A stretch of DNA of 42,878 bases. Source: Acidimicrobiales bacterium (GTDB lineage: Bacteria > Actinomycetota > Acidimicrobiia > Acidimicrobiales > VFJN01). The stretch covers positions 1 to 42,878 of the forward strand of contig DATHJB010000168.1 in the NCBI GenBank assembly GCA_035316325.1. Reading direction: 5' to 3'. Positions 10,435-30,413 of the stretch are shown here, piece after piece. Below the pieces are notes generated by a model. The model worked only from the letters and a program-made list of their open reading frames with translations, was not told the origin of the DNA and made no database searches. A program made the translations under genes and the position numbers. Position 1 is the stretch's first letter; every line of letters starts with the position of its first letter.

Positions 10435-11646
10435 GTGGCGGCGGTGTTCTTCGTCAACGGTGCGCTGTTCGCGAACTGGGTGACGCGCGTCCCGGCGGTG
10501 AAGGACGCCGTCGATACCGGCACCGGACCGCTCGGCGTGGCCCTGCTGGGCATCGGGGCGGGGTCGCTGCTGTCGATGCCGTTCTCGGGCCGGCTGTGCG
10601 AGCGCTACGGCAGCGGGCGGATCGTCACCGCCAGCGGCCTGGGGATGTCGGCCGTGCTGCTCCTGCCCGCCTTCGCCCCCGACGTGGTGACCCTCGGCCT
10701 GTGCCTGCTGTTCTACGGCGCCGGCTTCGGCCTGCTCGACGTGTCGATGAACGTCCAGGCGGTCGCCGTGGTGAAGCGGCTGGAGCGGCCGATCATGCCG
10801 TGGTTCCACGCCGCCTTCAGCTGCGGCGGCCTGGCCGGCGCCGCCACCGGAGGCCTGGCCGCCCAGGCCGACCTCGGCCCCGCGCCCCACTTCGCCCTGG
10901 TCGGCTCCGTCATGGCGGTGGTCGTGCTGTGGGCGGATCGGCACCTGTTGCCGGACCCCGACCCCGTGCCCGAGCCCGCACCGAAGCCGGAACCCGAGCC
11001 CGACCCGACGCTGCAAGGCCGAGATGGCGACGGCGACCGCGACCGCCGGACCCGGCGGTTGAACCCCTACGTGATCGGCGTCGGGGCCGTCGCCGCCTGC
11101 GCCGCGCTGGGCGAGGGCGTGATGGCCGACTGGTCCACCCTGTTCCTCCGCGACGTCCGTGACGTCGACGCCGGCCCCGCGGCCGCCGGGTTCGCGGCGT
11201 TCTCCGTCGCCATGACCGCCGGTCGCCTCGGCGGCGAGGCCGCCATCCGCCGCCTCGGTGCCACCAGGGTCCTGCAGGTCGGCGGGTCGACCGCGGCCGC
11301 CGGCGTCGTCCTCGCCGTGACCGTGCCGTCGCCCGTCGCCGCCGTCGTCGGCTTCCTGCTGGTGGGCCTGGGCCTGTCGTGCGGCTTCCCCCTGGCCATC
11401 AGCGCCGCCGGCGAGAGCGGGTCCGGGTCGGGCAGCAACGAGATCGCCACCGCCTCGATGATCGGCTACCTGGGCTTCCTCCTCGGCCCGCCCCTCATCG
11501 GACTGCTGGCCGAGGTCGTGGGCCTGGGCCCCGCGCTGCTCGCCATCGCCGTCTCGTCGGCGGGCCTCGTCGCCCTGGCCCCGATCCTCGGGACCGCCGA
11601 CCCGGCCGCTACCGGCCCAGACCCGGTAAGGGCAGGCGCGCGGTGA
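10435..11646 (+). CDS. Major facilitator superfamily transporter
   Basis: About 403 residues with ~12 hydrophobic segments, resembling YbjJ-like MFS proteins (FFVNGALFANWVTRVPAVKD near the N-terminus, GFGLLDVSMNVQAVAV, AAFSCGGLAGAA). The substrate is unknown. The central loop (~residues 183-205) is an unusual Asp/Glu-Pro string (PDPDPVPEPAPKPEPEPDP) before the second half. The start is uncertain: GTG 10435 falls inside the first helix and has no ribosome binding site. The same frame continues upstream with a plausible basic N-terminus (DSDLRLARRAVAAV) to an ATC at 10402 that lies six bases after TAGCCT (10390-10395). The 3' end overlaps the 3' end of murJ by 38 bases. Confidence 0.82.
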   Translation: MAAVFFVNGALFANWVTRVPAVKDAVDTGTGPLGVALLGIGAGSLLSMPFSGRLCERYGSGRIVTASGLGMSAVLLLPAFAPDVVTLGLCLLFYGAGFGLLDVSMNVQAVAVVKRLERPIMPWFHAAFSCGGLAGAATGGLAAQADLGPAPHFALVGSVMAVVVLWADRHLLPDPDPVPEPAPKPEPEPDPTLQGRDGDGDRDRRTRRLNPYVIGVGAVAACAALGEGVMADWSTLFLRDVRDVDAGPAAAGFAAFSVAMTAGRLGGEAAIRRLGATRVLQVGGSTAAAGVVLAVTVPSPVAAVVGFLLVGLGLSCGFPLAISAAGESGSGSGSNEIATASMIGYLGFLLGPPLIGLLAEVVGLGPALLAIAVSSAGLVALAPILGTADPAATGPDPVRAGAR

Positions 11647-13567
11647 GCGCGGCGGCCTCGGGGACCTGCAACCAGCGCGTCATCACCAGGTAGACGACCC
11701 CGGCCGGGCCGAGCACCAGCGGCGCCAGCAGCAGCGCCGGCCAACTGTTCGGCAGCACGGTGACCAGGCCGAACGCCACCGTGGCGGACACCGCGCACGA
11801 CGCCGCGATCGGGTTGAGCCAGCGCCCGGCCATCCGGGTGCGCCCGATCCGCCAGGCGACCGCCCGCGCCAGCATCCGGTACTCGACGATCGCGGCGACG
11901 GTCGCGCCGATGGCGAAGGCGATCAGCCCCAGGTGGACGAACTCGGTGTTGAGCCGCACCGAGGACGGCAGCGGCCCGACGGCCCAGAAGTCGTCCCAGC
12001 CCTGCACGCCGTTCGACCCGATCGTCAACCGGTCGAGCGGGAACATCACGGCCAGGCTCACCACGGTCGACACGACCACCCGGATGACCGACAGCCGCGG
12101 CGGCGTCTTGGGGTCGTCCAGGGCGTAGAGGCCGTTCTGCAGCAGCCGCGACGACGTCGTCGCCGGTAGGCCGATGGCGAACACGGCCAGCGCCAGCCAG
12201 ACGCCCCAGGTGTCGTCCCAGCCGAACTTGCCCCGCTGGAAGATGGCACCGACGATCACGTCGCCCACCACGACGTACATGGTGGCGATGGGCAGCACGT
12301 AGAAGGCGATGCGGGCCATGCCGTCTTCCAGGCGCCGCCGGAACAGCCGGCGGGTCTCGGGGTCGTGCACCGACACCTGCGACAGGTCGGGCAGCTCGGC
12401 GGCGGCCACACCGAGGCCGAACATCGAGATCGGCAGCTGGTACAGCAGCAGGGCGTAGAACAGCGACGACACCGCCCCGGTGGCCAGGAAGCTGGCCAGC
12501 CACAGGTCGATGTAGATGATGAACTGGACGATGCCCTTGCCCACGATGACGGGCATGAAGCGGGTCACCACGCTGCGGACCGGGGCGCTGCGGGTGTCGA
12601 GGCTCAGGCGCATGTTGCGGCCCAACAGGCCCAGCACCGGGCGCAGTTGCACCAGCAGCTGGAGCAGACCACCGACCAGCACGCCCCAGGCCAGGGCCGT
12701 CGCCATCCGCCACTGGCTCTGATGGGTGAGGCCGGCGGCGAACAGCGCCGCGATCTGGGCGGCGTTCCACAGCACCGGCGCGATGTAGGACAGGAAGAAC
12801 TTGCGGTGGCTGTTGAGCACCCCGAGGCACCAGGCCGACAGCACCAGGAAGCCGATGCCGGGGAACATGATGCGGACGAGCCGGACGGTCAGTGCGAACG
12901 TCTCGCCCTCGAAGCCGGTGACCAACACCCGGGCGATCGGCTCGGCGAACATCACGCCGACGAGGCTGATGATGCCGGTGATCACCAGCAGCAGGCCGGC
13001 GATGGCCCCGGCCAGGCGGCCGGCCTCGCGCTCGTTGCCCTCGTCGCGCAGCCGGGCGTACACCGGGATGAACGACGCCGACAGCACACCTTCGCCCAGC
13101 AGGTTCTGCAGCATGTTGGGGATGCGCAGCGCCGCCTTGAAGGCGTCGGCGGCGGGGCCGGTGCCCAGGAAGGAGGCGATCACCGTCTCCCGCACGAGGC
13201 CGGCGCAGCTCGACAGGAAGATGGCGATGGCGACCAGCCGCGACGACTTCGACGACGACGGCTGCTCCTCCTCCTCGGGCGGCGGCTCCGGGGGTGGCGG
13301 GCGACCCGGCCGAGGGGGAGAAGGGCGGCGGGTCGGACGGACCTGGTCGTCGGCCCGGGTCCGCAGGCGAGGCCCCGACTGCTGCAGGAGCATCTCGTCG
13401 AGGATCGGCATCTCGATGGTCGGCGCGTCGGGCTCGTACCACCCGGGCTCCGGCTCCGGCCCGTCCTCGGCGTAGGGGGAGTGCGGACGCGGCGCGTGCC
13501 GCTCGCGCTCGTAGGGGTCAGCCCGCAGCCAGGGGTCCTGGTCGTGCTCGTCGTTGCCGGTCGTCAC
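11609..13567 (-). CDS. murJ: Lipid II flippase MurJ (MviN family)
   Basis: A 652-residue membrane protein that moves the peptidoglycan precursor lipid II across the inner membrane. The conserved start of the MOP-fold domain is visible after residue ~108 (VRETVIASFLGTGPAADAFK, then RIPNMLQNLLGEGVLSASFI), with about 14 hydrophobic helices to the end. A disordered N-terminal extension of ~108 residues precedes it, rich in Asp, Glu, Pro and Arg (PPPPEPPPEEEEQPSSSKSS). Such extensions are a known actinobacterial feature (MviN of mycobacteria has extra domains). The ATG overlaps the stop of the upstream coiled-coil gene by four bases. The stop lies inside the 3' end of the MFS gene. Confidence 0.93.
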   Translation of the reverse strand: MTTGNDEHDQDPWLRADPYERERHAPRPHSPYAEDGPEPEPGWYEPDAPTIEMPILDEMLLQQSGPRLRTRADDQVRPTRRPSPPRPGRPPPPEPPPEEEEQPSSSKSSRLVAIAIFLSSCAGLVRETVIASFLGTGPAADAFKAALRIPNMLQNLLGEGVLSASFIPVYARLRDEGNEREAGRLAGAIAGLLLVITGIISLVGVMFAEPIARVLVTGFEGETFALTVRLVRIMFPGIGFLVLSAWCLGVLNSHRKFFLSYIAPVLWNAAQIAALFAAGLTHQSQWRMATALAWGVLVGGLLQLLVQLRPVLGLLGRNMRLSLDTRSAPVRSVVTRFMPVIVGKGIVQFIIYIDLWLASFLATGAVSSLFYALLLYQLPISMFGLGVAAAELPDLSQVSVHDPETRRLFRRRLEDGMARIAFYVLPIATMYVVVGDVIVGAIFQRGKFGWDDTWGVWLALAVFAIGLPATTSSRLLQNGLYALDDPKTPPRLSVIRVVVSTVVSLAVMFPLDRLTIGSNGVQGWDDFWAVGPLPSSVRLNTEFVHLGLIAFAIGATVAAIVEYRMLARAVAWRIGRTRMAGRWLNPIAASCAVSATVAFGLVTVLPNSWPALLLAPLVLGPAGVVYLVMTRWLQVPEAAALTARLPLPGLGR

Positions 13568-14450: not shown

Positions 14451-15878
14451 GTGGGAGGAGCACGCCGAGCGTGGGTCGTCGCGGCGGCGACGGGGCTGCT
14501 GGTCGCGTCGTGTGGCGGTGGCGACGACGACGGCGCGTCGGGCGACGACGAGGGCGACGAAGCGGCGACCACGGAGCTGCCCCCCTGCCCGCTCGACGCC
14601 CTCGACGACGCCACCGAGCCGGTCGAGATCGTCTACTGGCACGGGATGACCCGGGTCGCCGAGGACGCCCTGAAGGCCCTCACCGACGAGTTCAACGCCT
14701 CGCAGGACCGGGTGCAGGTGAAGCTGGTGAACAACTCCAGCGGCAATCAGCACGACAAGTACCTGGCCGGGCTCCAGACCGGCGACCTGCCCGACGTGAT
14801 CCAGCACGACGCCACCCTGCTGCAGCAGATGGTCGACACGCAGACCGTGGTGCCGGCCGAGTCGTGCATCGCGGCGATGGAGGAGCGGGGCGACGAGTTC
14901 GACGAGGCCGACTGGGTGGAGCGCAGCCTCGTGTACCACCAGCTGGACGGGGTGCAGTGGGCGCTGCCGTTCGGCGTCGCCAACCCGGTGCTGCTCTACA
15001 ACAGGGCGGCCTTCACCGAGGCGGGGCTCGACCCCGACGACCCGCCCGCCACCCTCGACGACTACCGGTCCGCCGCCGAGGCCCTGGTCGACGCCGGCTA
15101 CCGCTACGGCGCCGCGGTGGCGATCGAGGCGTGGCACTTCGAGGAGTTCCTCGCCCTGGCCGGTGAGACCTACGTCGACCAGGGCAACGGCCGCACGGAC
15201 CGGGCCACGCAGGTGACCTTCGACGGCGGGTCCGGCGAGGAGCTGTACGCCTTCTTCGACCAGCTGGTCGACGACGGCCTCGCCGTGACCAACCCCCGCG
15301 AGGGGCCCGACGGCATCAACAACCTGCTGGCCATTGGCAACGGCGACGCCGGGATGACGGTGGTGTCGTCCTCGGCGCTGGGATCGGTGCTGGAGGTGCT
15401 CGGGTCGGACCAGTACACCGACGTCGAGCTGGGCGTGGGCCCGATGCCCGGGTTGACCGAGGACGGGGGTGTCGTCGTCGCCGGTGGAGGCCTGTCGATC
15501 ACCGCCCGCGACCCGGCCAAGCAGGCCGCCGGCTGGGAGCTCATCCAGTTCCTCACCAGCCCCGAGAGCCAGGCCACGTGGGCCGCGGCCACCGGCTACG
15601 CCCCGGTGCGCCAGTCGTCGGTCGACCTGCCCGAGCTCCGGCAGCGCTGGGAGGAGGAGCCCGGCTTCCGCATCTCCTACGACCAGCTGGTGGAGGGCGT
15701 CGAGAACGAGGCGACCGCCGGCCCGATGGTGGGCGACATGGCCGCGGTGCGGACCGCCGTCGAGGAGGCGCTGACCGCCATGTTCGTCGCCGACCTGGCC
15801 CCCGACGAGGCGCTCGCCGAGGCCGCCCAGGTCTCGAACGACGCGATTGCCTCCTACAACGAGCGCCTCGGTGGGTAA
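14451..15878 (+). CDS. ABC importer substrate-binding lipoprotein, copy 1
   Basis: A 475-residue extracellular solute-binding protein of the family that captures sugars or glycerol-phosphate-type compounds (UgpB/MalE group). The signal peptide ends in a lipobox (VASC, Cys21), followed by an acidic Gly/Asp linker. The mature part starts CPLDALDDATEPVEIVYWHG and contains LPFGVANPVLLYNRAAF and AKQAAGWELIQFLTSPESQA, typical of these proteins. Two cysteines (CPLDAL and AESC) are conserved in all three paralogues of this locus and may form a disulfide. GTG 14451 follows a TAGGGT box. A hairpin and the ATPase gene follow. Copy 1 is the most divergent of the three. Confidence 0.9.
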   Translation: MGGARRAWVVAAATGLLVASCGGGDDDGASGDDEGDEAATTELPPCPLDALDDATEPVEIVYWHGMTRVAEDALKALTDEFNASQDRVQVKLVNNSSGNQHDKYLAGLQTGDLPDVIQHDATLLQQMVDTQTVVPAESCIAAMEERGDEFDEADWVERSLVYHQLDGVQWALPFGVANPVLLYNRAAFTEAGLDPDDPPATLDDYRSAAEALVDAGYRYGAAVAIEAWHFEEFLALAGETYVDQGNGRTDRATQVTFDGGSGEELYAFFDQLVDDGLAVTNPREGPDGINNLLAIGNGDAGMTVVSSSALGSVLEVLGSDQYTDVELGVGPMPGLTEDGGVVVAGGGLSITARDPAKQAAGWELIQFLTSPESQATWAAATGYAPVRQSSVDLPELRQRWEEEPGFRISYDQLVEGVENEATAGPMVGDMAAVRTAVEEALTAMFVADLAPDEALAEAAQVSNDAIASYNERLGG

Positions 15879-15881
15879 CGT

Positions 15882-15903
15882 CCGGGGTCGCCGCCGGCCC
15901 CGG
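15882..15903 (+). terminator. Intercistronic hairpin after the first binding-protein gene
   Basis: CCGGGG (15882-15887) pairs with CCCCGG (15898-15903) around a ten-base loop, four bases after the stop codon and 37 bases before the ATPase start. In binding-protein operons such hairpins often attenuate or protect mRNA so that more binding protein than transporter is made. Here that is inference. Confidence 0.4.
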
Positions 15904-15939
15904 CGCGTGGCGGAAGCGGAAGCGGATGAGGAGTAGTTG

Positions 15940-17066
<1,127 letters not shown>

Positions 17067-17067
<1 letters not shown>

Positions 17068-17960
17068 TGGCCGGGCGCACCCGGCGTGCGCAGCGTCGGC
17101 GGGAGGCGCTGCTGGGCTACCTGCTGGTGGCCCCGGCGCTGGTCGTGTTCGCCGTCTTCGTCTTCTACCCCTTCGCCAAGAACTTCCAGCTGGCCTTCTA
17201 CCAGGACCCGCTGTTCAACCTCCCCGGCAAGCGCTACGTCGGCTTCGACCAGATCAGCGACGTCCTCTCGTCCGAGGACTTTCGCCACAGCCTCTGGACG
17301 ACGATCGCGTTCGCCCTGCTCTCGGTGCCCGCCGGCATCCTGCTAGGCCTGGCCCTGGCCGTCGCGGCCCACCAGAAGCTGCGGGGCATCGGCATCTACC
17401 GCACGATCTTCGCCTCGACGGTGGCCAGCTCGGTGGCGGTGGCGGCGGTCATCTTCGGGACGCTGTTCAACCCGGTGATCGGCTGGCTGCCGTGGCTCGG
17501 CATCGAGCCCCAGCCGCCGTTCCTGCAGAACCCCGACTGGGCGCTGCCCGCCGTCGCCCTGGTGACGATCTGGCAGAGCATCGGCCTGTCGTTCATCGTG
17601 ATGTCGGCGGGCCTGCAGGCCATCCCCGAAGAGGTGCTGGAGGCGGCCGAGCTCGACGGTGCCCGTCCCTGGCGGCGGTTCTGGCGGGTGACGGTGCCGC
17701 TGCTGTCGCCCACGATCTTCTTCGCCGTGGTGGTCGGGTCGATCTTCGCCTTCCAGGCGTTCGCCCAGGTGGAGATGCTCACCAAGGGCGGCCCGATCGA
17801 CCGCACCAACGTGCTGACCTACAACATCTTCGTCACCCTGCGGGAGAGCCAGGACGAGGGCCGGGCGGCGGTGCTGTCGATCGCTCTGTTCCTGGTCACG
17901 CTGCTGCTGACCCTGTTCCAGATGCGGATCCTCGAGAAGCGGGTGCACTATGCGTCGTAG
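17067..17960 (+). CDS. ABC sugar importer permease, MalF/UgpA type
   Basis: A 297-residue inner-membrane permease with about six hydrophobic helices after a basic N-terminus (MAGRTRRAQRRREALLGYLL). The EAA loop that docks on the ATPase is seen near residues ~190-218 (EEVLEAAELDGARPWRRFWR, VTVPLLSPTIF). FYPFAKNFQLAFY in the first periplasmic part is typical of UgpA-like proteins. The start codon overlaps the ATPase stop by one base, and the gene's end overlaps the second permease by 11 bases, so all three are translationally coupled. Confidence 0.93.
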
Positions 17961-18786
17961 CGGTGGCCGGCCCGGGCTCAGGAAGTTCGCCCGCTACCTG
18001 CTGTTGACCGCCCTGGCGTTCGTGGTGCTGTTCCCCATCTACGTGACGGTCGTGGGGTCGCTGCTGATGCCCGAGCAGCTCACGTCGCGCCCGCCCACGC
18101 TGATCCCGGACCACCCGCAGTGGAGCTCCTACAGCGACGCCTGGAGCGGCGGCCACTTCTCCACCTACCTGCGCAACAGCGCGGTGATCACCGCGCTGAT
18201 CACCGTCGGGCAGCTCGTCACGTCGATCCTCGCCGGGTACGCCTTCGCCCTGCTGGAGTTCCCGTTCAAGCGGACGATCTTCGTGGTGTTCCTGGCCACG
18301 ATGATGGTGCCGTTCGAGGTCACGATCATCACCAACCTCCAGACCGTGACCGACCTCGGTTGGTACAACAGCTACGCCGGCCTGGCGGTGCCGTTCCTGG
18401 CGACCGGCTTCGGGGCGTTCCTCATGCGCCAGGCGTTCCTGCAGATCCCGCACGACCTGCGCGACGCGGCCACGATCGACGGCTACGGCCACCTCAAGTT
18501 CCTCGGCCGCGTGGCGGTGCCGCTGGCGCGCCCGTCGATCGCGGCGCTGGCGGTGTTCTCGTTCCTCGGCGCCTGGAACCAGTACCTGTGGCCGCTGCTG
18601 GTGACCAGGGACGACGAGTACCGGACCGTTCAGATCGGCCTCAAGCAGCTGCGCAGCACGCAGCTCGACGAGATCAACGTGACGCTGGCCGGCACGATCC
18701 TGGCGGCGTTGCCGCTGGTCGTGCTGCTGATCCTGTTCCAGAAGCAGCTCATCCGCGGGCTCACCACCGGGGCGGTGAAAGGTTGA
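17950..18786 (+). CDS. ABC sugar importer permease, MalG/UgpE type
   Basis: A 278-residue partner permease with six hydrophobic helices. It has the MalG/UgpE-type opening (FARYLLLTALAFVVLFPIYV), the GFGAFLMRQAFLQIPHDLRD segment and an EAA loop (DLRDAATIDGYGHLKFLGRV, AVPLARPSIAALAVFSFLG). It overlaps the first permease by 11 bases and is followed after four bases by a second binding-protein gene. With the first permease it forms the heterodimeric channel of the importer. Confidence 0.93.
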   Translation: MRRSGGRPGLRKFARYLLLTALAFVVLFPIYVTVVGSLLMPEQLTSRPPTLIPDHPQWSSYSDAWSGGHFSTYLRNSAVITALITVGQLVTSILAGYAFALLEFPFKRTIFVVFLATMMVPFEVTIITNLQTVTDLGWYNSYAGLAVPFLATGFGAFLMRQAFLQIPHDLRDAATIDGYGHLKFLGRVAVPLARPSIAALAVFSFLGAWNQYLWPLLVTRDDEYRTVQIGLKQLRSTQLDEINVTLAGTILAALPLVVLLILFQKQLIRGLTTGAVKG

Positions 18787-18790
18787 TGGA

Positions 18791-20200
18791 ATGTTGAAGC
18801 CCCTCGCGGCGGCCACCTCGGCGCTGCTCCTCCTCGTGGCCTGTGGCGGAGGCGACGACGACTCGGGCGACTCCGGGGGCTCGGGCGACGGCGACGGCGG
18901 CGGCGACCTCGCCGACTGCCCGGTCGACGCGCTCGACGACGCCACCGCACCCGTCGAGATCTCGTTCTGGCACCCGATGGTGCGGGCCAACGAGGAGGCC
19001 CTGATCGCGCTGACCGACGCCTACAACGCCTCGCAGGACGAGGTGGAGGTGTCGCTGGTCAACAACACCACCTACGACGACCAGCAGGACAAGTACCGGG
19101 CCGGCCTCACGTCCGGCGACCTGCCCGACGTGTCGATGCAGCAGGACATCTACCTGCAGCAGCTGATCGACACGCAGACCGTGCTGCCGGCCCAGTCCTG
19201 CATCGACGCCACCAGCAACTTCCCCACCGACGACTTCACGGCCCGCACGCTGGAGTACTACCAGGTGGGCGACGTGCAGTGGGGCCTGCCGTTCAACGTG
19301 TCGAACCCGGTCTTCTACTACGACAAGGCGGCGTTCCGGGCGGCCGACCTCGACCCCGAGGCCCCGCCCGCCACCTTCGACGACGTGAGGGCCGCCGCCG
19401 AGGCGATCACGGCGTCGGGCTACCCGGCCGGGTTCGGGCTCAAGGTCGACTCGTGGTACTTCGAGCAGCTCGTGGCCCTGCAGGGTGGCGAGCTGGTCGA
19501 CAACGGCAACGGCCGCGACGACCGGGCGTCGGCGGCGACGTTCGACAGCGAGGCCGGCGCGGCGGTGTTCGACTTCTTCGGCGCGATGGTGGCCGACGGG
19601 CTCGCCACGCCCAGCCCCCGTGAGGGCCCCAGCGAGTTCGACAACCTCCTCGGCATCGCCAACGGCCAGCACGCCATGACCTTCGACACCTCGGCGGCGC
19701 TGGGCACGATCGTCGAGCTGCTGGCGTCCGGCCAGTACACGAACGTCGACCTGGGCGTGGCCCCGCTGCCGAAGGGCGACCCTGACGCCGAAGGTGGCAT
19801 CGTGGTGGGCGGCGCCGCGCTCTACATCTCGGCCACCGAACCGGCCAAGCAGGCCGCGGCCTGGGACTTCATGCAGTACCTGACCACGCCGGAGAGCCAG
19901 TCGCAGTGGGCCGCGGCCACCGGCTACATCCCGGTGCGGGCGTCGGCCACCGAGCTGCCGGAGATCACCGCGCGCTGGGCCGAGGTCCCCGGCTTCCGGG
20001 TGGCCTACGACCAGCTGGTCGACGGCGCCGACACCACCGCCACCAACGGCGGGGTGATCGGCGACTTCGAGGGTGTGCGGGCCGCCATCGAGGACGCCGA
20101 GGACACGATGTTCCTCGACGGCGGGTCGCCCGACGCCGCCGTGGCCGACGCGGCGACCGCCGCGTCCGCCGCCATGGAGGCGTACAACACAAGACTGTGA
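18791..20200 (+). CDS. ABC importer substrate-binding lipoprotein, copy 2
   Basis: A 469-residue paralogue of copy 1. The lipobox is LVAC (Cys18), followed by a Gly/Asp/Ser linker. The mature part begins CPVDALDDATAPVEISFWHP and has the same landmarks: YLQQLIDTQTVLPAQSCIDA, GLPFNVSNPVFYYDKAAF, AKQAAAWDFMQYLTTPESQS. The AQSC and CPVDAL cysteines match those of the other copies. It is closer to copy 3 than to copy 1 (shared MVRANEEAL, DTQTVLPAQSC, ATELPEI/V), suggesting a later duplication. It lies four bases after the second permease. The ligand is unknown; these receptors may supply the single transporter with related substrates. Confidence 0.9.
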   Translation: MLKPLAAATSALLLLVACGGGDDDSGDSGGSGDGDGGGDLADCPVDALDDATAPVEISFWHPMVRANEEALIALTDAYNASQDEVEVSLVNNTTYDDQQDKYRAGLTSGDLPDVSMQQDIYLQQLIDTQTVLPAQSCIDATSNFPTDDFTARTLEYYQVGDVQWGLPFNVSNPVFYYDKAAFRAADLDPEAPPATFDDVRAAAEAITASGYPAGFGLKVDSWYFEQLVALQGGELVDNGNGRDDRASAATFDSEAGAAVFDFFGAMVADGLATPSPREGPSEFDNLLGIANGQHAMTFDTSAALGTIVELLASGQYTNVDLGVAPLPKGDPDAEGGIVVGGAALYISATEPAKQAAAWDFMQYLTTPESQSQWAAATGYIPVRASATELPEITARWAEVPGFRVAYDQLVDGADTTATNGGVIGDFEGVRAAIEDAEDTMFLDGGSPDAAVADAATAASAAMEAYNTRL

Positions 20201-20210
20201 GGAGCGCACG

Positions 20211-21611
20211 GTGAGGACACGAACGGGTCTGGTCTGGCTGACGGCGGTCGCTCTCCTGGGCGCCGCCTGCAGCGGTGGCGACGACGACGCCGGTGGTGGG
20301 GGAGGTGGCGGGGGCGGCGGTGACCTCCCGGAGTGCCCGCTCGACGCCCTCGACGACGCCACCGAGCCGACCGAGATCACGTTGTGGCACACGATGGTGC
20401 GGGCCAACGAGGAGGCCCTGGTCACCCTCACCGACGCCTTCAACGCGTCGCAGACCGACGTGAAGGTGAACCTGGTCAACAACAACGACAGCAACGACCA
20501 GCACGAGAAGTACCTGTCCGCCATCAGCACCGGCGGCGAGCTGCCCGACCTGGTCCAGTCGCAGGAGTTCTACCTCCAGCAGCTGGTCGACACGCAGACC
20601 GTGCTGCCGGCGCAGTCGTGCCTGGACGCAGAGAACACCAGCACCGAGGACTTCGTCGACCGCACACTTGCCTACTACGAGATCGCCGACGTGCAGTGGG
20701 GGCTGCCGTTCGCCGTCTCCGAGCCGATCCTCCTCTACAACCGCACGGCGTTCACCAACGCCGGGCTCGACCCGGACAACCCGCCCGCCACCTTCGAGGA
20801 CCTGCGCACCGCCGCCCAGGCGCTGGTCGACGCCGGCCACGAGGGCGGCCTCGGCCTCAAGCTCGACGCCTGGCACCTGGAGCAGATGCTGGCCTGGCAG
20901 GGCGAGCCGTTCGTGAACAGCGGCAACGGGCGCGAGGAGCGCGCCACGGAGGTGGCGTTCGACACCGACACCGCGGTGGAGACGTTCGCGTTCCTCAAGG
21001 GCCTGGTCGACGACGGCCTGGCGATCACCAGCCCGGCCGATGGCGAGGGCGGCTTCGACAACCTGCTCAGCGTCGGCACCGGCAAGGTGGGAATGACCAT
21101 CGACGCCTCGGGCTCCCTGGGCACGATCATCCAGGTGCTGGAGAGCGGCCAGTACGCCGACGTCGAGCCGGCGGTGGCGCCGGTGCCGGGCCGGGAGGAC
21201 GACGGCGGCGTGCTCGTCGGCGGCTCCGGCCTCTACGTCTCGGCCCAGGACCCGGCGAAGCAGGCCGCGGCCTGGCGCTTCGCCGAGTTCCTGACGTCGG
21301 CCGAGAGCCAGTCGCAGTGGGCCGCGGCGACGGGGTTCGTCCCGGTGCGCGAGTCGGCCACCGAGCTGCCGGAGGTCCAGCAGCGCTGGCAGGAGATCCC
21401 CGGCTTCCGGGTCGCCTACGACGAGCTCACCGAGGGTGCCGAGAACGACGCCACCGCGGGTCCCGCCATCGGCGACTACCGGACCGTGCGGCGCGTCGTG
21501 CAGGAAGCCGAGGCGAAGATGTACCTGGAGGACATGTCCCCCGAGGACGCCGTCGCCGAGGCCGCGGAGAAGGCGAACGACGCGATCTCGTCGTACAACT
21601 CCCGCATCTGA
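20211..21611 (+). CDS. ABC importer substrate-binding lipoprotein, copy 3
   Basis: A 466-residue third paralogue. GTG 20211 follows GAGGAG at 20199-20204 with a six-base spacer, overlapping the end of copy 2's stop. The lipobox region is LLGAAC (Cys20), followed by a ten-glycine linker. The mature domain begins CPLDALDDATEPTEITLWHT, with YLQQLVDTQTVLPAQSCLDA, GLPFAVSEPILLYNRTAF and AKQAAAWRFAEFLTSAESQS. It differs from copies 1 and 2 around the expected ligand-contacting loops, so ligands may differ. It is the last gene of the operon, ending at a long hairpin. Confidence 0.9.
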   Translation: MRTRTGLVWLTAVALLGAACSGGDDDAGGGGGGGGGGDLPECPLDALDDATEPTEITLWHTMVRANEEALVTLTDAFNASQTDVKVNLVNNNDSNDQHEKYLSAISTGGELPDLVQSQEFYLQQLVDTQTVLPAQSCLDAENTSTEDFVDRTLAYYEIADVQWGLPFAVSEPILLYNRTAFTNAGLDPDNPPATFEDLRTAAQALVDAGHEGGLGLKLDAWHLEQMLAWQGEPFVNSGNGREERATEVAFDTDTAVETFAFLKGLVDDGLAITSPADGEGGFDNLLSVGTGKVGMTIDASGSLGTIIQVLESGQYADVEPAVAPVPGREDDGGVLVGGSGLYVSAQDPAKQAAAWRFAEFLTSAESQSQWAAATGFVPVRESATELPEVQQRWQEIPGFRVAYDELTEGAENDATAGPAIGDYRTVRRVVQEAEAKMYLEDMSPEDAVAEAAEKANDAISSYNSRI

Positions 21612-21616
21612 GGCCC

Positions 21617-21682
21617 GACCCACCGAAATTGCGTGGCTGGCGGTCGCTCTGCGACCAGCAGCCACGCAATTTCGGGTCGGTC
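21617..21682. terminator. Long bidirectional hairpin between convergent operons
   Basis: A 17-base perfect inverted repeat, CCGAAATTGCGTGGCTG (21623-21639) with its complement at 21659-21675, encloses a second stem GGTCGC/GCGACC (21642-21647, 21651-21656) with a TCT loop. GACC/GGTC outer arms extend it. It lies between the stop of binding protein 3 and the stop of the opposing vWA gene, so it should end transcription from both sides. The AAATT in the stem is unusually AT-rich for the region. It could also be a genome-dispersed repeat. Confidence 0.75.
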
Positions 21683-23510
21683 AGAAGTTGGAGATCACGT
21701 TGTTGAGGACCCGGTCGATGGTGGTCGGGTCGGAGGCGTCGTAGGCCGCGGCCGACGTGGCCTCGGCGATCTGGCGCAGGGTCGACTGGTCGGCGTCGCC
21801 GCCGTAGCCGATCGGGAACACCCGCACCGGCCGGCTGGCCACACCCTCGCTCGACGACTCCAGTGAGTCGATCAGCGAGGCGAGCTGGTCGCGGTCGTCG
21901 GTGTTGTCGCCGTCCTGGTTCATGCCGTCCGACAGCACCACCACGGCGTTGATCCGGCTGGGGTCGAAGGCCTCCAGCGCGGCGTCGTACGCCTCCTGGG
22001 TGGCCTCGTACAGCGGCGTGTTGGCCACCGGCGCCAGGTCGCGGATCTGGCCGGCGAGCTGCTCGCGCACGTCGCCCACCCGGGCAGGCTCCTGCAGCTT
22101 CAGGATGTTGTCGGTGCCCTGCGGGCCGAGCTCGGTGGAGAACGTCCACAGGCCGACCTCGTCGTCGTCCTTGAACAGGTCGAGTGCCTGGGCCGCGGCC
22201 GTCTTCGCCAGGTCGAGCTTGGTCTCGCCGGTCTCCGGGTTGCCCGGGTCGCCCATCGAGCCGGACACGTCGACCAGCAGCAGCACCCGGGCCGACTTGC
22301 GCTGCGTCTGCCAGTCGGCGAGCAGGTCGGCCAGCACGGGGGGCTCGGGCACCTCGAGCAGCGTGTCGGGCGTGGCGGGGTTGACGCCGTTGTCCTCGGT
22401 GATGGGGGCGCCCACCGCCACGTCGGGGTTGCCGGGGCGGAAGCCGTACTCCAGCACCTTCTCCTGGTTGTCCGCGGTGCCGGCGAAGTCGACGAACAGC
22501 TGCGCCGCGTCCTTCTCCTCCTGGCTCACCCACTCGGCGTCGAGCACGAACAGCGGGTGGTCGGAGTAGAGGGTGCCTTCCTTGGGATAGATGGCGACCA
22601 GCGGCTCGCGGGGCGGGCGGGCCTCCTCGCCGGCGTCGAGGATGCCGTCGGGGTTGCCGGTGTTGTAGTCGATCACCGACTTCTCCTCGACCGCCACGGC
22701 CGACACGTACTGGAACGGGTTGCCGCGCTGGTCGGCCCGGTACCAGTTGTTGAGGAACGTGAGGGTGGTGTCGCCGTAGTGGACGACCGCCGACTCGACG
22801 GCGCTGGCGAACTGGGCGACCGCGGGGTTGTCGAGGTCCTCCGACGACAGGCCGCTGGACTTGTTGGTGGCCGCGTAGGCCTGGGCGATGAGCGCGGAGA
22901 GTCCGCTGGTGGAGAAGTTCGGGTTGGTCTTGCCCAGGCGGAACGCACCCCACTCGGGGTGGCCCTTGCCGGCCCAGCCCTGGGTGTCGCGGGCCAGGGC
23001 GAGGATGTCGGCGAAGCCCACGGGGGTATCGGGCCAACCCAGTGCGTCCGCCATCGGCCGGGGCATGGCGATGACCAGCGGGCTGAGCATGAAGCGCTCG
23101 GCGGCGGGGTCGGTGATCGCCGTGCCGGTCTGCTGGTTGAGCACCGTGCCCCAGGTCGACGCGGCGGGCGACCAGATCACCGGCCGCGGCCCTTCGAGGT
23201 TCTCGTCCCAGCCCTCGGCCAGCAGCGACTCGGCGAAGCCGGACGACTTGCTCTGAACCCGCACGAAGGCGCAGTCGCCGCCGTCCATGTCGGCGGCGTC
23301 GGAGCCGTTGAAGTCGTCGGCCAGGTCGGTCATCAGCTCGAGCTTCTCGGGCGACGACGCCAGGTCGACCGGCACGCAGTCGCCGGGGTCCTCGAGGCTG
23401 CCCTCGTCACCGCCGTCGTCGTCGTCATCGCCGCCGCCGCACGCCGCCGCCGTCACGACCAGCGCCGATGCCAGGAACGCTCCCCACCACCGCCAAGTCC
23501 GCCGGGTCAT
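21681..23510 (-). CDS. Lipoprotein with binding-protein-like and von Willebrand A domains
   Basis: A 609-residue secreted lipoprotein. The signal peptide ends TAAAC (Cys24), followed by an acidic Gly/Asp linker. Residues ~45-380 look like a type-2 solute-binding domain (ERFMLSPLVIAMPRPMADAL, HPEWGAFRLGKTNPNFSTSG). A vWA domain fills the C-terminal ~200 residues with a complete MIDAS: DVSGSM at 414-419, the NTPLYEAT threonine and the VVVLSDGMN aspartate. vWA domains bind proteins through a metal ion. Similar 'substrate-binding and VWA' proteins are annotated in actinobacteria without a known role. GGAGG lies nine bases before the ATG. The gene follows the next anchored binding-like protein by 31 bases, probably in one operon. 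Confidence 0.85.
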   Translation of the reverse strand: MTRRTWRWWGAFLASALVVTAAACGGGDDDDDGGDEGSLEDPGDCVPVDLASSPEKLELMTDLADDFNGSDAADMDGGDCAFVRVQSKSSGFAESLLAEGWDENLEGPRPVIWSPAASTWGTVLNQQTGTAITDPAAERFMLSPLVIAMPRPMADALGWPDTPVGFADILALARDTQGWAGKGHPEWGAFRLGKTNPNFSTSGLSALIAQAYAATNKSSGLSSEDLDNPAVAQFASAVESAVVHYGDTTLTFLNNWYRADQRGNPFQYVSAVAVEEKSVIDYNTGNPDGILDAGEEARPPREPLVAIYPKEGTLYSDHPLFVLDAEWVSQEEKDAAQLFVDFAGTADNQEKVLEYGFRPGNPDVAVGAPITEDNGVNPATPDTLLEVPEPPVLADLLADWQTQRKSARVLLLVDVSGSMGDPGNPETGETKLDLAKTAAAQALDLFKDDDEVGLWTFSTELGPQGTDNILKLQEPARVGDVREQLAGQIRDLAPVANTPLYEATQEAYDAALEAFDPSRINAVVVLSDGMNQDGDNTDDRDQLASLIDSLESSSEGVASRPVRVFPIGYGGDADQSTLRQIAEATSAAAYDASDPTTIDRVLNNVISNF

Positions 23511-23541
23511 CCGTCACTACCTCCACTCACCGAGAACACGT

Positions 23542-24585
23542 TCATACCAGCTGCTGCCAGCGTTGCAGCAGCACCCGCAGGACGTCGCCCCGGGGGATGC
23601 CGGGGTCGTCGGGCAGTTCGACGTCGGCGTCGAGGCCTTCCGCGAGGTCGCGGCCATCGACGCGCCAGCCGGCGGCGGCGAGGGCGTCGCGCAGGGCGTC
23701 GTCGTCGGCGAGGTCGGGGGCGGCGTCGCTGTCGTCGCCCTCGTCGGTCACAGGCACGGCGACCAGGTCGGCGGTCACGATCGGCTCGGGCACCACCACC
23801 TGCACGCGGTCGCTCTCCAATGCCCGGTCGGCGTCGGCTTCGACGGTGCCGAGCACCGCCAGCAGCCCGGGGCCGCCGGTGATCATGGCGTCGACGGCGT
23901 CGGGCCGGTCGGCGGTCCGGGCCTCGGCGGCCAGGCGGGAGAGCCAGTTGTCGAGGCCGCCGTCGAAGTCGTTGCTGGCGTAGCCGGCGTCGTCCAGGTA
24001 GTCGGCGGCGGCCGCGCCCAGGGCGACGAGTCCCGGCCCGGCAGCGGGACGGGCGATGCCGGCCTTCACCGGGCCCCAGTTCGCCTGACCGCCGGCCGCC
24101 GTCCAGGGCCCGGCGGCGACGTCGCCGACGCACTGCCAACCGATCTCGCCGCCGCACGCGCCCGACGTGGCCAGGGCCTCGGCCCGGTTCTCCTGCACCA
24201 CCAGCACGACGGGGGAGCGGGCGATCGTGGCGCTGGCCTCGCCCAGCACGGCCGGCTGGTTGGCCAGCTCGCGGGCGGCGCTGACGGCCTCGGCCCAGGA
24301 CCGGGGCACCAGCCACACGTCGGCGTCGACCGCGTCGGCGGTGCGGGCCGCGGTGAGGGCGTCGGCGGTCACGACGGCGTCCTCCACCCGGACCGTGTAG
24401 TCGTCCTCGAACCGGTCGCAGACGTCGGCCAGCTCGGGCGGGCAGACCAGCGTGGTGCCGTCGCCGTCGCCCCCACCGGAGCCGCCGCCACCACCGTCGT
24501 CGTCCCGGCCCCGGATGAACAGCGCCAGCCCCACGAGGCCGACCGACACCCCGAGCGCCAGGACCCGTCGGGCGTTCTCGTTCAC
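23542..24585 (-). CDS. Membrane-anchored binding-protein-like protein
   Basis: A 347-residue protein with an N-terminal anchor helix (~6-24, RRVLALGVSVGLVGLALFIR) rather than a lipobox, then a Gly/Asp linker. The body (~45-347) shows features of a type-2 solute-binding fold (VDADVWLVPRSWAEAVSAAR, ARSPVVLVVQENRAEALA, NWGPVKAGIARP). These parallel the vWA neighbour (LSPLVIAMPRPMADALG, EWGAFRLGKTNP), so the two look related. Three cysteines (VCPPELADVC region) could be disulfide-bonded. GTG 24585 overlaps the GNAT stop by four bases. Function is unknown; there is no adjacent permease, so a role in sensing or protein assembly rather than import is possible. Confidence 0.72.
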   Translation of the reverse strand: MNENARRVLALGVSVGLVGLALFIRGRDDDGGGGGSGGGDGDGTTLVCPPELADVCDRFEDDYTVRVEDAVVTADALTAARTADAVDADVWLVPRSWAEAVSAARELANQPAVLGEASATIARSPVVLVVQENRAEALATSGACGGEIGWQCVGDVAAGPWTAAGGQANWGPVKAGIARPAAGPGLVALGAAAADYLDDAGYASNDFDGGLDNWLSRLAAEARTADRPDAVDAMITGGPGLLAVLGTVEADADRALESDRVQVVVPEPIVTADLVAVPVTDEGDDSDAAPDLADDDALRDALAAAGWRVDGRDLAEGLDADVELPDDPGIPRGDVLRVLLQRWQQLV

Positions 24586-25178
24586 GCCGCCTTCGGCTCC
24601 CGCCACATGGGCCACAGCGGCGGGCCGTCGGGTAGCTGGATCTCGGCCGTCACGGCGAAGCCGTAGCGGGCGTAGAACGCGATGTTCCGCTCCTTCGACG
24701 ACTCGAGGTAGGCGCCCAGGCCCTGCTCGTCGCAGCGGTCGAGGATCGGGGCCATGAGGTCGGCGCCGACGCCCGTGCCCTGCGCCGGCGGGTCGGTCCC
24801 CAGCACGGAGAGGTACCAGTGCGGTGCCCGGGGGTGGGCCTGCTCGATCACCGACAGGCCGCGCACCGCCCGGAACACGCGGGGGCCGACGGCAGGCGCC
24901 ATCACGGGCAGCGACCGCAGCATGTCGACCCACTTCTCCTTCCAGCGGTCGGGCGGGTCCCAGAAGGCGCCGCCCAGGTGGCCGTCGGTGGTGAGCACCT
25001 CGCCCTGCACGCCGTGGCGGCGGGCCTCGAGGGCGAAGAACCGCCGGAGCCGCTTCAGCCGGCGCTCGTCGTGGGGGCCGAAGAGCCAGGTCATCACCGG
25101 GTCGTCGGCGAAGGCGCGGGCCAACGCCGCGGCCAGCGGCGCGATGTCGTCCGGTGTCGCGGTCCGTGCCCTGGTCAC
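24582..25178 (-). CDS. GNAT family N-acetyltransferase
   Basis: A 198-residue cytoplasmic acetyl-CoA-dependent acyltransferase. It starts TRARTATPDDIAPLAAALAR and has acetyl-CoA motif A at ~128-146 (LGTDPPAQGTGVGADLMAPI), then the family's LESSKERNIAFYARYGFAV stretch. The acceptor cannot be predicted. GTG 25178 is the chosen start. It is the first gene of the operon leading into the two binding-protein-like genes, with a four-base overlap. It is divergent from proA across a 59-base gap. Confidence 0.9.
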   Translation of the reverse strand: MTRARTATPDDIAPLAAALARAFADDPVMTWLFGPHDERRLKRLRRFFALEARRHGVQGEVLTTDGHLGGAFWDPPDRWKEKWVDMLRSLPVMAPAVGPRVFRAVRGLSVIEQAHPRAPHWYLSVLGTDPPAQGTGVGADLMAPILDRCDEQGLGAYLESSKERNIAFYARYGFAVTAEIQLPDGPPLWPMWREPKAA

Positions 25179-27963: not shown

Positions 27964-28902
27964 ATGGAGTCGCAGGCGTACCGTTTCGAGTCCGTCCCCG
28001 CCGTGCGCGAGTCGCTGCGCAAGGTCGACTACCTGGCGGACGAGGGCATCGCCGGCGTGGTCTACCTCGCCGATCGCCTCGGCAAGCCGGTCCTGGTCGA
28101 GGGCCCGGCCGGCACCGGCAAGACCCAGCTGGCCAAGTCGGTGGCCGACATGACCGGGTCCCGCCTCATCCGCCTGCAGTGCTACGAGGGCCTCGACGAG
28201 TCGAAGGCGCTCTACGAGTGGAACTACAAGAAGCAGCTCCTCCGCATCCAGGCCGAGCGCAACGACGGCGCCTCCTGGGCCGAGATCGAGGACGACATCT
28301 TCTCCGAGGAGTTCCTGCTCACCCGGCCGCTGCTGGAGGCCATCCGCGCCGAGGAGCCGGTGGTGCTGCTGATCGACGAGGTCGACCGGGTCGAGGTCGA
28401 GACCGAGGCGCTGCTCCTGGAGATCCTCTCCGACTACCAGGTGTCGATCCCGGAGCTGGGCACGGTCGTCGCCACCCAGATCCCGCTGGTGTTCCTCACC
28501 TCGAACAACACCCGTGAGCTGTCCGAGGCCCTCAAGCGCCGCTGCCTCTTCCTCCACGTCGACTACCCCGACCTGGAGCGCGAGCGTCAGATCGTCCTCG
28601 CCAAGGTGCCCGACATCACCGAGGGCCTGGCCGAGCAGGTCGCCCGCATCGTCCGCTCGATCCGCCAGCTGGAGCTGAAGAAGCCGCCGTCGGTGTCGGA
28701 GACCATCGACTGGGCCCGGACGCTGCTGCTGCTCGGGGTCGAGAAGGTCGACGCCGAGGTCGCCACCAGCACCGCCAACATCCTGCTCAAGTACCAGACC
28801 GACATCGCCAAGGCGGTCAAGGAGCTGGCTCAGGACGACTCGCTCGGCGGCGAGGGCGCGGCGTCGGGAGCTCCCGGCAAGCCCTGGCAACGGACCTCTT
28901 GA
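27964..28902 (+). CDS. MoxR-family AAA+ ATPase
   Basis: A 312-residue ATPase. Walker A is at 47-54 (GPAGTGKT), Walker B is VVLLIDEVDRVEVETEALLL, and sensor 1 lies in VFLTSNNTRELSEALKRRCL. MoxR proteins act as chaperones for the assembly or metal loading of enzymes and usually pair with a vWA-domain protein. The partner is immediately downstream: its ATG overlaps this gene's stop. No carbon-monoxide dehydrogenase or other obvious client enzyme is in the window. A leaderless promoter precedes the ATG. Confidence 0.92.
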   Translation: MESQAYRFESVPAVRESLRKVDYLADEGIAGVVYLADRLGKPVLVEGPAGTGKTQLAKSVADMTGSRLIRLQCYEGLDESKALYEWNYKKQLLRIQAERNDGASWAEIEDDIFSEEFLLTRPLLEAIRAEEPVVLLIDEVDRVEVETEALLLEILSDYQVSIPELGTVVATQIPLVFLTSNNTRELSEALKRRCLFLHVDYPDLERERQIVLAKVPDITEGLAEQVARIVRSIRQLELKKPPSVSETIDWARTLLLLGVEKVDAEVATSTANILLKYQTDIAKAVKELAQDDSLGGEGAASGAPGKPWQRTS

Positions 28903-30413
28903 TGGCCGGAAGCGGCATCGCCGGCAACGGCGCCGCCCTCACACGCGAGGCGATGGGGGCGGGGGTCGCGCTCACCGAGCTGCTGTCGGGCTTCATCTCC
29001 GAGCTGCGCACCGCCGGCCTGCCGGTGAGCCTCACCGAGAACCTCGACGCGATGGAGGCGGTGAAGCACATCCCCATCGAGGACCGCGAGGCCTTCAAGT
29101 ACGCGCTCGCCGCGACCCTGGTGAAGAACGCCTCGCACTGGCGGGTGTTCGAGACGGTCTTCGAGGTGTACTTCTCGCTGCGGGGCAAGGACTTCGCCCT
29201 GAACGACGAGCAGGCCGGGGGCATGCCCGACCTCGACGAGCTGCTCGGCGAGCTGGCCGACCAGCAGCGGGGCGACCAGCCGGGCGGCAACGGCTCGGGC
29301 GACATGATGACGCCCGAGGAGCTGGCGGAGATGCTCTACCGGGCGCTCCAGCAGGGCAACGAGGCGATGCTCCAGGCCCTGGCCCGCCAGGCCGTGCGGC
29401 GCTACGCCGGCATGGAGCCGGGTCGCCCGGTCGGCGGCACCTACTACCTGTACCGCACGCTGCGGAACCTCGACCTCGACGGCCTGCTCGACAAGCTCAT
29501 GCAGGAGGCCCGCGAGGGCGCCGACGACCAGCTCTCCCCGCTGGAGGAGCGCCTCGAGCGCGACGAGTACGAGTCGCGCATCGACAAGCTCCGCAAGCAG
29601 ATCGAGGCCGAGATCCGTCGCCGCCTCGTGGCCGACCGCGGCGTCGACGCCATGGCCCGCACGCTGCGCAAGCCGCTGCCCGAGGACGTCGACTTCATGC
29701 ACGCCAGCCGCGAGGAGATGGCGTCGCTGCGCAAGGCGATCTACCCGCTGACCCGCAAGCTCGCGGTGCGCCTGGCCCGCAAGCGCCGCCACGGCCGCAA
29801 GGGCCCGCTCGACTTCCGGTCGACCATGCGGCACTCGCTCAGCTACGGCGGCGTGCCGGCCGACCCCAAGTTCCGCTACCCGCGCCCGTCGAAGCCGGAG
29901 ATCGTGGTGGTGGCCGACATCTCGGGCTCGGTGGCTGCCTTCGCCCGCTTCACCCTCCACCTCGTCTACGCCATCAGCAACCAGTTCTCGAAGGTGCGGG
30001 CCTTCGTGTTCATCGACGGCATCGACGAGGTCACCCGCCTGTTCGAGGGCACCGAGGACATCGCCGAGGCGGTGCACCGGGTGAACACCGAGGCCGACGT
30101 GATCTGGGTCGACGGCCACTCCGACTACGGCCACGCCTTCGAGGAGTTCTGGAAGCGCTGGGGCCGGGAGATCGGGCCGAAGTCCACCGTGCTGCTCCTG
30201 GGCGACGCCCGCAACAACTACCACGCCTCCCAGTCGTGGGTGCTCAAGGAGATGGAGCACCGGGCCCGCCACCTCTACTGGCTGAACCCGGAGCCGAAGA
30301 GCTACTGGAACACCGGCGACTCGATCATCGGCGAGTACTCCACGTTCTGCGACGGTGTGTTCGAGTGCCGCAACCTGCGCCAGCTGGAAAAGTTCGTCGA
30401 TCATCTCGTATAA
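28902..30413 (+). CDS. CoxE-like von Willebrand A domain protein
   Basis: A 503-residue cytoplasmic protein without a signal peptide. The N-terminal ~120 residues (ELLSGFISELRTAGLPVSLT) resemble CoxE-type proteins. The middle is helical and charged (ELAEMLYRALQQGNEAMLQA, ERDEYESRIDKLRKQIEAEI). The C-terminal vWA domain starts with MIDAS motif DISGSV at 339-344, preceded by FRYPRPSKPEIVVVA. The last MIDAS position is in TVLLLGDARNN. It is expected to work with the MoxR ATPase, whose stop overlaps its ATG. An in-frame TTG at 28899 is less likely. The MoxR/CoxE client here is unknown. Confidence 0.88.
   Translation: MAGSGIAGNGAALTREAMGAGVALTELLSGFISELRTAGLPVSLTENLDAMEAVKHIPIEDREAFKYALAATLVKNASHWRVFETVFEVYFSLRGKDFALNDEQAGGMPDLDELLGELADQQRGDQPGGNGSGDMMTPEELAEMLYRALQQGNEAMLQALARQAVRRYAGMEPGRPVGGTYYLYRTLRNLDLDGLLDKLMQEAREGADDQLSPLEERLERDEYESRIDKLRKQIEAEIRRRLVADRGVDAMARTLRKPLPEDVDFMHASREEMASLRKAIYPLTRKLAVRLARKRRHGRKGPLDFRSTMRHSLSYGGVPADPKFRYPRPSKPEIVVVADISGSVAAFARFTLHLVYAISNQFSKVRAFVFIDGIDEVTRLFEGTEDIAEAVHRVNTEADVIWVDGHSDYGHAFEEFWKRWGREIGPKSTVLLLGDARNNYHASQSWVLKEMEHRARHLYWLNPEPKSYWNTGDSIIGEYSTFCDGVFECRNLRQLEKFVDHLV

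Follow-up and report, generated by a model that had tools for sequence, protein, structure and literature searches.

A paired extracytoplasmic binding-protein module genetically linked to PspA and an AAA+ ATPase in Acidimicrobiia and related Actinomycetota

RESULTS

Two adjacent genes in a 42,878-nucleotide stretch of an Acidimicrobiales genome (here called the window) encode related extracytoplasmic binding-like proteins, SBPL and VWA, and we see an even chance that they form a paired extracytoplasmic module of a PspA-centered envelope-stress or membrane-remodeling system of Acidimicrobiia and related Actinomycetota. Because the pair is always coinherited and is usually found in one operon with PspA and an ATP-driven motor, it is probably the outside sensor of a so far undescribed membrane-stress system in actinobacteria, most of them uncultured, and not a stand-alone oddity.

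SBPL and VWA are encoded on the minus strand, downstream of a GNAT acetyltransferase gene, and all three reading frames of the original prediction were recovered. SBPL (23542 to 24585) is a 347-amino-acid protein with an N-terminal transmembrane anchor (approximately residues 7 to 25), a degenerate type II substrate-binding domain, and four near-invariant cysteines (C48, C56, C144, and C152). VWA (21681 to 23510), the gene for which starts 31 nt downstream of SBPL with a GGAGG ribosome-binding site, is a lipoprotein (lipobox C24) in which an SBP_bac_11 domain (approximately residues 45 to 400) is fused to a vWA domain (residues 405 to 609). The predicted fusion was borne out by Pfam, as both the SBP_bac_11 match (PF13531, 3.3e-12, 47.1 bits versus a gathering cutoff of 25) and the VWA match (PF00092, 1.3e-10, 42.2 bits versus 23.8) exceeded their cutoffs. 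Moreover, the metal ion-dependent adhesion site (MIDAS; DxSxS...T...D) was intact, and its five residues, D414, S416, S418, T498, and D528, were identical in 90/90 VWA homologues. So perfect a motif makes metal-dependent protein contact by the vWA domain plausible.

Sequence landmarks had been reported to be shared by the two outer proteins. Landmarks alone were weak evidence, since SBPL of the window had no significant Pfam match and BLASTP did not match SBPL to VWA (E = 0.12), and homology was visible only with family profiles. When the two family profiles were compared with hhalign, they aligned with a probability score of 92.5 and an E value of 4.8e-7, with LARSPxVLV in register with TPLVIAMP and WGxVxxG in register with WGxFRLG. 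Consistent with a real relationship, a whole-genome search with the VWA HMM recovered an SBPL gene at an E value of 1e-18, and an SBPL orthologue at another locus (L163) scored 29.1 bits on PF13531, above the cutoff. The predicted structure of SBPL (pLDDT of 88) was that of a type II binding protein, with a Z score of 20 to a sulfate-binding protein, and the two proteins belong to the same fold family. The AlphaFold model of VWA, made from a 14-row alignment, had a pLDDT of 64 overall and a poor SBP domain with no readable pocket. Profile searches of the PDB returned no match for SBPL and only vWA domains for VWA. We conclude that the homology of SBPL and VWA is real.

The outer proteins are also inherited together, and the co-conservation on which the original proposal was staked was thus observed. 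Neighborhood mining found SBPL adjoining VWA in all 75 loci that had enough upstream sequence, with a median overlap of 4 nt. Among 148 genomes of the class, the core VWA protein was encoded by 17, spanning 12 families, and SBPL accompanied it in 17/17; among the genomes without core VWA, the only trace of SBPL was a 120-amino-acid remnant. Three genomes (G031, G113, and G156) had lost the pair jointly and kept AAA-C4-MurJ-PspA, one of which (G156) retained a 120-amino-acid stub of SBPL. We conclude that a complex of two related extracytoplasmic binding-like proteins, as originally proposed, is well supported by co-conservation, joint loss, gene overlap, and fold family. The proposal that the complex is an isolated one for sensing or assembly did not hold up as well; the data agree better with sensing that is linked to envelope maintenance by PspA.

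The conserved unit is larger than the GNAT-SBPL-VWA operon first described, of which only the pair was retained. The conserved gene order is AAA+, SBPL, VWA, C4, an optional MurJ, and PspA, where C4 is a two-transmembrane coiled-coil protein. C4 was found in 70/73 loci, AAA+ in 46/60, and PspA in 39/51, and no permease or ABC ATPase was found within the conserved block across loci. The block including PspA was present in 12 loci that lacked proA, proB, and obgE neighbors, and it therefore reflects more than inherited synteny. Linkage of VWA, C4, and PspA persisted in a more distant genome (L058), a further locus (L065) had a VWA-248 aa-PspA arrangement, and "Candidatus Microthrix parvicella" (L089) was among the carriers of the operon with PspA. 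The outer pair can also be encoded without PspA and AAA+ nearby, as some loci (L118, L133, L145, L121, and L130) had neither gene close to the SBPL-VWA core. The AAA+ domain scored best with SpoVK, EccA, and CbbX models and carried AAA_lid_6, and its N-terminal region had no Pfam match even at an E value of 10. A TerB-like fold for that region, suspected by eye, found no support, and a profile comparison of C4 with PspA found no relation that would make C4 an ESCRT-III/PspA relative.

The MurJ gene, which separated C4 from PspA in 26/52 loci and overlapped its neighbors, raises the alternative that the pair, C4, and MurJ constitute a cell wall assembly or division complex. The outer pair would then scaffold peptidoglycan or lipid II handling, MurJ would flip lipid II, PspA and the AAA+ protein would shape the membrane at growth sites, and stress sensing would be secondary. 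Grouping of the AAA+ protein with SpoVK, a sporulation protein, is consistent with such a complex, as is the role in cell shape ascribed to RsmP, a corynebacterial PspA, in PMC11237479. However, where sequence was sufficient, half of the loci lacked MurJ and still had C4 and VWA, and a scaffold would need no conserved ligand-type SBP domain. We therefore consider a cell wall complex rather unlikely.

Another alternative is suggested by the vWA domain of the LapA adhesin, which was among the closest solved vWA relatives. If the locus were a surface adhesion or conflict module, the lipoprotein would grip extracellular proteins and PspA would merely protect the membrane. However, no variable effector regions were seen, the SBP domain was more conserved than the vWA domain, and PADLOC matched none of the outer proteins, C4, MurJ, or PspA, such that an adhesion or conflict role seems improbable. 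Antiphage defense was likewise rejected, as the PADLOC matches were weak and were to AAA+ models only, for the AAA+ protein.

The window genome carries a broken-up version of the operon. On the minus strand, C4 (13564 to 14400; two-transmembrane hairpin and coiled coil, no Pfam family) overlaps by 4 nt a gene of the MurJ/MviN lipid II flippase family (11609 to 13567), and the gene that is last in the conserved operon encodes a PspA/IM30 family protein (9476 to 10273; PF04012, 104.5 bits versus a cutoff of 33.9). The PspA gene is 11 kb from the outer pair, on the same strand and not contiguous with it: an ABC-type sugar transporter operon (14451 to 21611, plus strand; three SBPs, an ATPase, and two permeases) parts VWA from C4-MurJ, an MFS gene stands between MurJ and PspA, and AAA+ is encoded on a different contig. 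The absence of a permease or ATPase from the operon, as originally noted, thus holds for the window and fails for the conserved version, which includes the CbbX-like AAA+ ATPase. No permease or ABC ATPase is encoded inside the window operon, but the sugar transporter operon converges on it, and a 25-nt inverted repeat between the two (21623 to 21675; 92% complementary, 3-nt loop) is a probable bidirectional terminator.

Given that adjacency and the SBP_bac_11 domain, SBPL and VWA could be orphan binding proteins that feed the neighboring sugar transporter or another permease. The transporter operon already encodes three binding proteins, however, and converges on the pair with a strong inverted repeat in between, and the other loci have no such operon next to the pair; moreover, the conserved S/T loops of VWA are lost from SBPL. 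The neighborhoods largely refute a feeding role, which we hold to be very unlikely, and we conclude that the sugar transporter operon is not part of the system. Least credible of all is the idea that GNAT, SBPL, and VWA make up a self-contained complex for sensing or assembly, with GNAT modifying a partner: the stop of the window GNAT gene (24582 to 25178, minus strand; Pfam Acetyltransf_1) overlaps the GTG start of SBPL by 4 nt, but only 11/53 loci have a related GNAT nearby, where it lies on the proA side and beside AAA+ instead of SBPL. The displacement of the AAA+ gene from its usual place is all that brings GNAT next to SBPL in the window, and we regard GNAT as a lineage-specific neighbor whose proposed activity on a partner is unsupported.

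DISCUSSION

PspA is described as a membrane remodeler of the ESCRT-III superfamily (PMC8281802), and two questions bear on the operon reported here: how PspA polymers are disassembled without a Vps4 partner, stated as open in PMC11237479, and how damage on the outer side of the membrane is perceived by PspA. The operon, which many actinobacterial families inherit together with PspA, offers concrete candidates for both in a putative extracytoplasmic ligand sensor and a dedicated AAA+ ATPase, and it gives an orphan SBP-vWA protein family a testable context. Neither SBP-vWA proteins nor PspA with vWA or MurJ had an earlier description in the main texts of the openly available papers searched; one paper (PMC13293324) lists a cooccurrence of SBP_bac_11 and VWA, in a table only.

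We infer a ligand, contacts, a direction of signaling, and an action of the AAA+ protein on PspA as follows. In the lipoprotein, the strongly conserved SBP domain would bind a small ligand, which is probably an anion or a metabolite of the envelope, while the MIDAS would grip a protein, the simplest choice being SBPL or part of an envelope protein. SBPL, which is fast evolving, cysteine braced, and membrane anchored, may have arisen by duplication of the SBP domain, degenerated, and become the fixed partner of VWA. Occupancy would be signaled across the membrane to C4, with its two transmembrane helices and cytosolic coiled coil, and C4 would recruit or release PspA at the inner leaflet. The CbbX/SpoVK-like AAA+ protein could then use ATP to remodel PspA assemblies, or C4, and MurJ may couple the response to cell wall precursor flux in many lineages. 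In full, a ligand-gated bacterial ESCRT-III machine, in which an envelope metabolite is sensed on the outside by the SBP-vWA lipoprotein together with its anchored, degenerate twin and a two-transmembrane coiled-coil adaptor controls PspA polymerization powered and recycled by a CbbX-class AAA+ ATPase, is a tentative possibility.

Known systems resemble the operon in part. Like the PSP systems surveyed by Ravi et al. in 2024 (PMC11237479), it joins a PspA_IM30 protein to operonic membrane partners, and among the PspA operons of that survey are some with AAA+ ATPases and a solute- or peptidoglycan-binding PBPB-OmpA protein; its main text, however, describes no vWA, SBP-vWA lipoprotein, CbbX-like single AAA+, or MurJ partner. 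As in ESCRT-III/Vps4 (Cdv) systems, one operon encodes an ESCRT-III superfamily protein and an AAA+ ATPase, but the latter belongs to the CbbX/SpoVK/EccA clade, with an unrecognized N-terminal region, and is not Vps4 (16.5 bits on the CdvC model versus a cutoff of 650); nor do those systems have a counterpart of the extracytoplasmic pair. Among solved structures, the AAA+ domain is most closely related to EccA of type VII secretion and the rubisco activase CbbX, but it scored far under equivalog cutoffs (TIGR03922, 230.4 versus 466.65 bits), and no ESX or rubisco genes were recognized in the operon. Both outer proteins share the fold and family of ABC substrate-binding proteins of the SBP_bac_11 (ModA/sulfate) type but have no adjacent cognate permease and ABC ATPase genes in the conserved block, one being fused to vWA and the other membrane anchored and degenerate. 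MoxR-vWA chaperone systems, such as RavA-ViaA and the ternary systems (PMC7159879), share the theme of AAA+ plus vWA, but here the vWA domain is extracytoplasmic on a lipoprotein and the AAA+ protein is CbbX-like with AAA_lid_6, not MoxR. A separate MoxR/CoxE-vWA pair is encoded near the outer pair in the window (27964 to 30413).

Two adjacent envelope proteins are related and co-conserved

The original prediction was a coupled operon of three genes, and minus-strand reading frames were found at the claimed coordinates for GNAT (24582-25178), the TM-anchored binding-like protein SBPL (23542-24585), and the lipoprotein VWA (21681-23510). Pfam assigned SBP_bac_11 and VWA domains to VWA, both above curated cut-offs, in agreement with the proposed fusion of a binding-protein domain to a vWA domain. 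The lipobox cysteine C24 is conserved in the family alignment, and the vWA metal site (MIDAS; D414, S416, S418, T498, and D528), predicted to be intact, is identical in 90 of 90 aligned homologues. SBPL on its own had no convincing family match. It is fast-evolving (mean modal frequency 0.36; SBP domain of VWA, 0.73), but four of its cysteines are near-invariant.

Pairwise BLASTP detected no relation between SBPL and VWA (E 0.12). When their family alignments were compared by hhalign, the two aligned with Prob 92.5 and E 4.8e-7, and both pairs of sequence landmarks originally noted as shared fell in register. In whole-genome searches, the VWA profile matched the SBPL genes of G399 (E 1.1e-18) and G406 (E 3.7e-18), and the SBPL profile matched the SBP domain of VWA proteins in return; one SBPL orthologue passed the PF13531 cut-off. 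Moreover, the AlphaFold model of SBPL (pLDDT 88.2) has a type II periplasmic binding protein fold (Z 20.0 to a sulfate-binding protein over 262 residues; rmsd 4.1), a fold related to the SBP_bac_11 domain of VWA. Because SBPL lacks the S/T-rich loops SSEK, SKASG, and GKTNPNFSTSG that are conserved in VWA, it is probably a degenerate duplicate.

To determine gene neighborhoods, the loci of the best 80 of 235 VWA relatives from a GTDB genome scan were retrieved and annotated using family HMMs and a gene caller based on a codon model; almost all of these loci carry Acidimicrobiia or other Actinomycetota labels. Consistent with the predicted co-conservation, a six-frame search placed SBPL beside VWA in 74 of the 75 loci that extended far enough; in the remaining one, L115, SBPL was present in the gene-level listing. 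The conserved order was AAA+, SBPL, VWA, C4 (a two-TM protein), optionally MurJ, and PspA, with median gaps of -1 (AAA+/SBPL), -4 (SBPL/VWA), 35 (VWA/C4), and -4 nt (C4/MurJ); the gap preceding PspA has a median of 42 nt when MurJ is its neighbor and 14 nt when C4 is. Among loci in which the gene position fell within contig ends, C4 was found near VWA in 70/73, AAA+ in 46/60, PspA in 39/51, and MurJ in 26/52. In most loci the block was flanked by proA on one side and proB-obgE on the other; in 12 loci, a few on short contigs, a block including PspA lacked these neighbors. In L174 and L175, a LivJ-like type I binding protein (~380 aa by eye) was inserted between C4 and PspA. In L058, which carries a more distant relative of the SBP-vWA type, a C4-like gene and PspA remain adjacent to it; other distant relatives, including those of large actinomycete genomes, stood alone. 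At L058 753-7139, beside PspA, two genes for SBP-vWA proteins are interleaved with a C4-like gene and a further TM gene, which suggests that the VWA-C4 unit was duplicated.

The operon behaves as two units joined by C4

Core VWA was present in 17 of 148 class genomes, in 12 families, and both SBPL and C4 were present in 17/17 of these. Two further genomes (G451 and G471) carried a lower-scoring VWA paralogue without SBPL, and the only SBPL outside VWA-bearing genomes was a remnant of 120 residues in G156. AAA+-C4-MurJ-PspA was kept, and VWA was absent, in three genomes from a single family (G031, G113, and G156), with SBPL gone or a stub. The G156 stub (L173 8693-9055; 120 aa) lies between MurJ and C4, comprises the TM anchor and about 90 residues, and could be a pseudogene or a shortened form that still functions. 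Reciprocally, L118, L133, and L145 kept SBPL-VWA-C4 in a different setting without AAA+ or PspA. The genomes are related by descent, such that presence and linkage counts are not independent events, and the spread over 12 families together with the joint losses is a stronger argument than the raw counts. From the joint losses and reciprocal retention, we conclude that SBPL and VWA behave as one unit and AAA+/PspA as another, and that C4 acts as the hinge between them.

The AAA+ proteins contain AAA and AAA_lid_6 domains; their best models were SpoVK, EccA, and CbbX, all scoring below equivalog cut-offs, and their closest solved structures were CbbX and EccA1. C4 has two hydrophobic helices near its N terminus flanked by basic residues, followed by a probable coiled coil, and it matched no Pfam family and had no detectable relation to PspA. 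MurJ and PspA are clear members of their families.

The simplest model is that the operon would be a system for envelope stress or membrane remodelling, equipped with a sensor of its own. In view of the TM anchor and lipoprotein signal, the conserved SBP domain, and the fully conserved MIDAS, SBPL and VWA may form a sensing, protein-gripping pair outside the membrane. C4 would bridge the pair to the cell interior; there, PspA, which belongs to the ESCRT-III superfamily (PMC8281802), and the AAA+ ATPase would act. The main rival, a role in cell-wall assembly, is favored by the lipid II flippase family member MurJ in the operon. Ravi et al. 2024 described AAA+ ATPases and a PBPB-OmpA protein in PspA operons and linked remodelling to solute handling, but the main text of that study names no vWA, MurJ, or CbbX, and that of Popp et al. 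2022 (PMC9239133) names no partner of the von Willebrand, solute-binding, or MurJ type. Among main texts, no description of the AAA+/SBPL/VWA/C4/MurJ/PspA operon was found, and a listing in supplementary tables is possible. We conclude that the system is of the PspA kind and that SBPL and VWA are its distinguishing part.

The system is scattered in the window

C4 (13564-14400), MurJ (11609-13567), and PspA (9476-10273) lie on the same strand as VWA, but an ABC sugar operon on the plus strand (14451-21611) separates them from it, and the block is further interrupted by an MFS gene (10435-11646). The AAA+ gene stands alone on another contig of the genome (C85, about 16691-18070; 61% identity), and the whole operon is intact in a close relative (L086). 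GNAT, originally proposed as an operon partner, was found in just 11 of 53 loci within contig reach and did not hold up as one; its overlap with SBPL would reflect a displaced AAA+ gene rather than a conserved partnership.

The ABC sugar operon encodes a single ATPase and two permeases but three substrate-binding proteins, which are similar to one another (14451-15878, 18791-20200, and 20211-21611). Elsewhere, the window's genome encodes a second, separate PspA, which adjoins a gene for a 393-aa secreted protein, TPM-domain-like by eye (both within L169 1258-3393). The same genome also encodes a protein of 1183 aa that carries two CbbX-type AAA+ domains (L167 6272-9823). Finally, a MoxR AAA+/CoxE-like vWA gene pair at 27964-30413 of the window recurs in relatives beside the PspA block, toward proA, and is a second AAA+/vWA system next to it.
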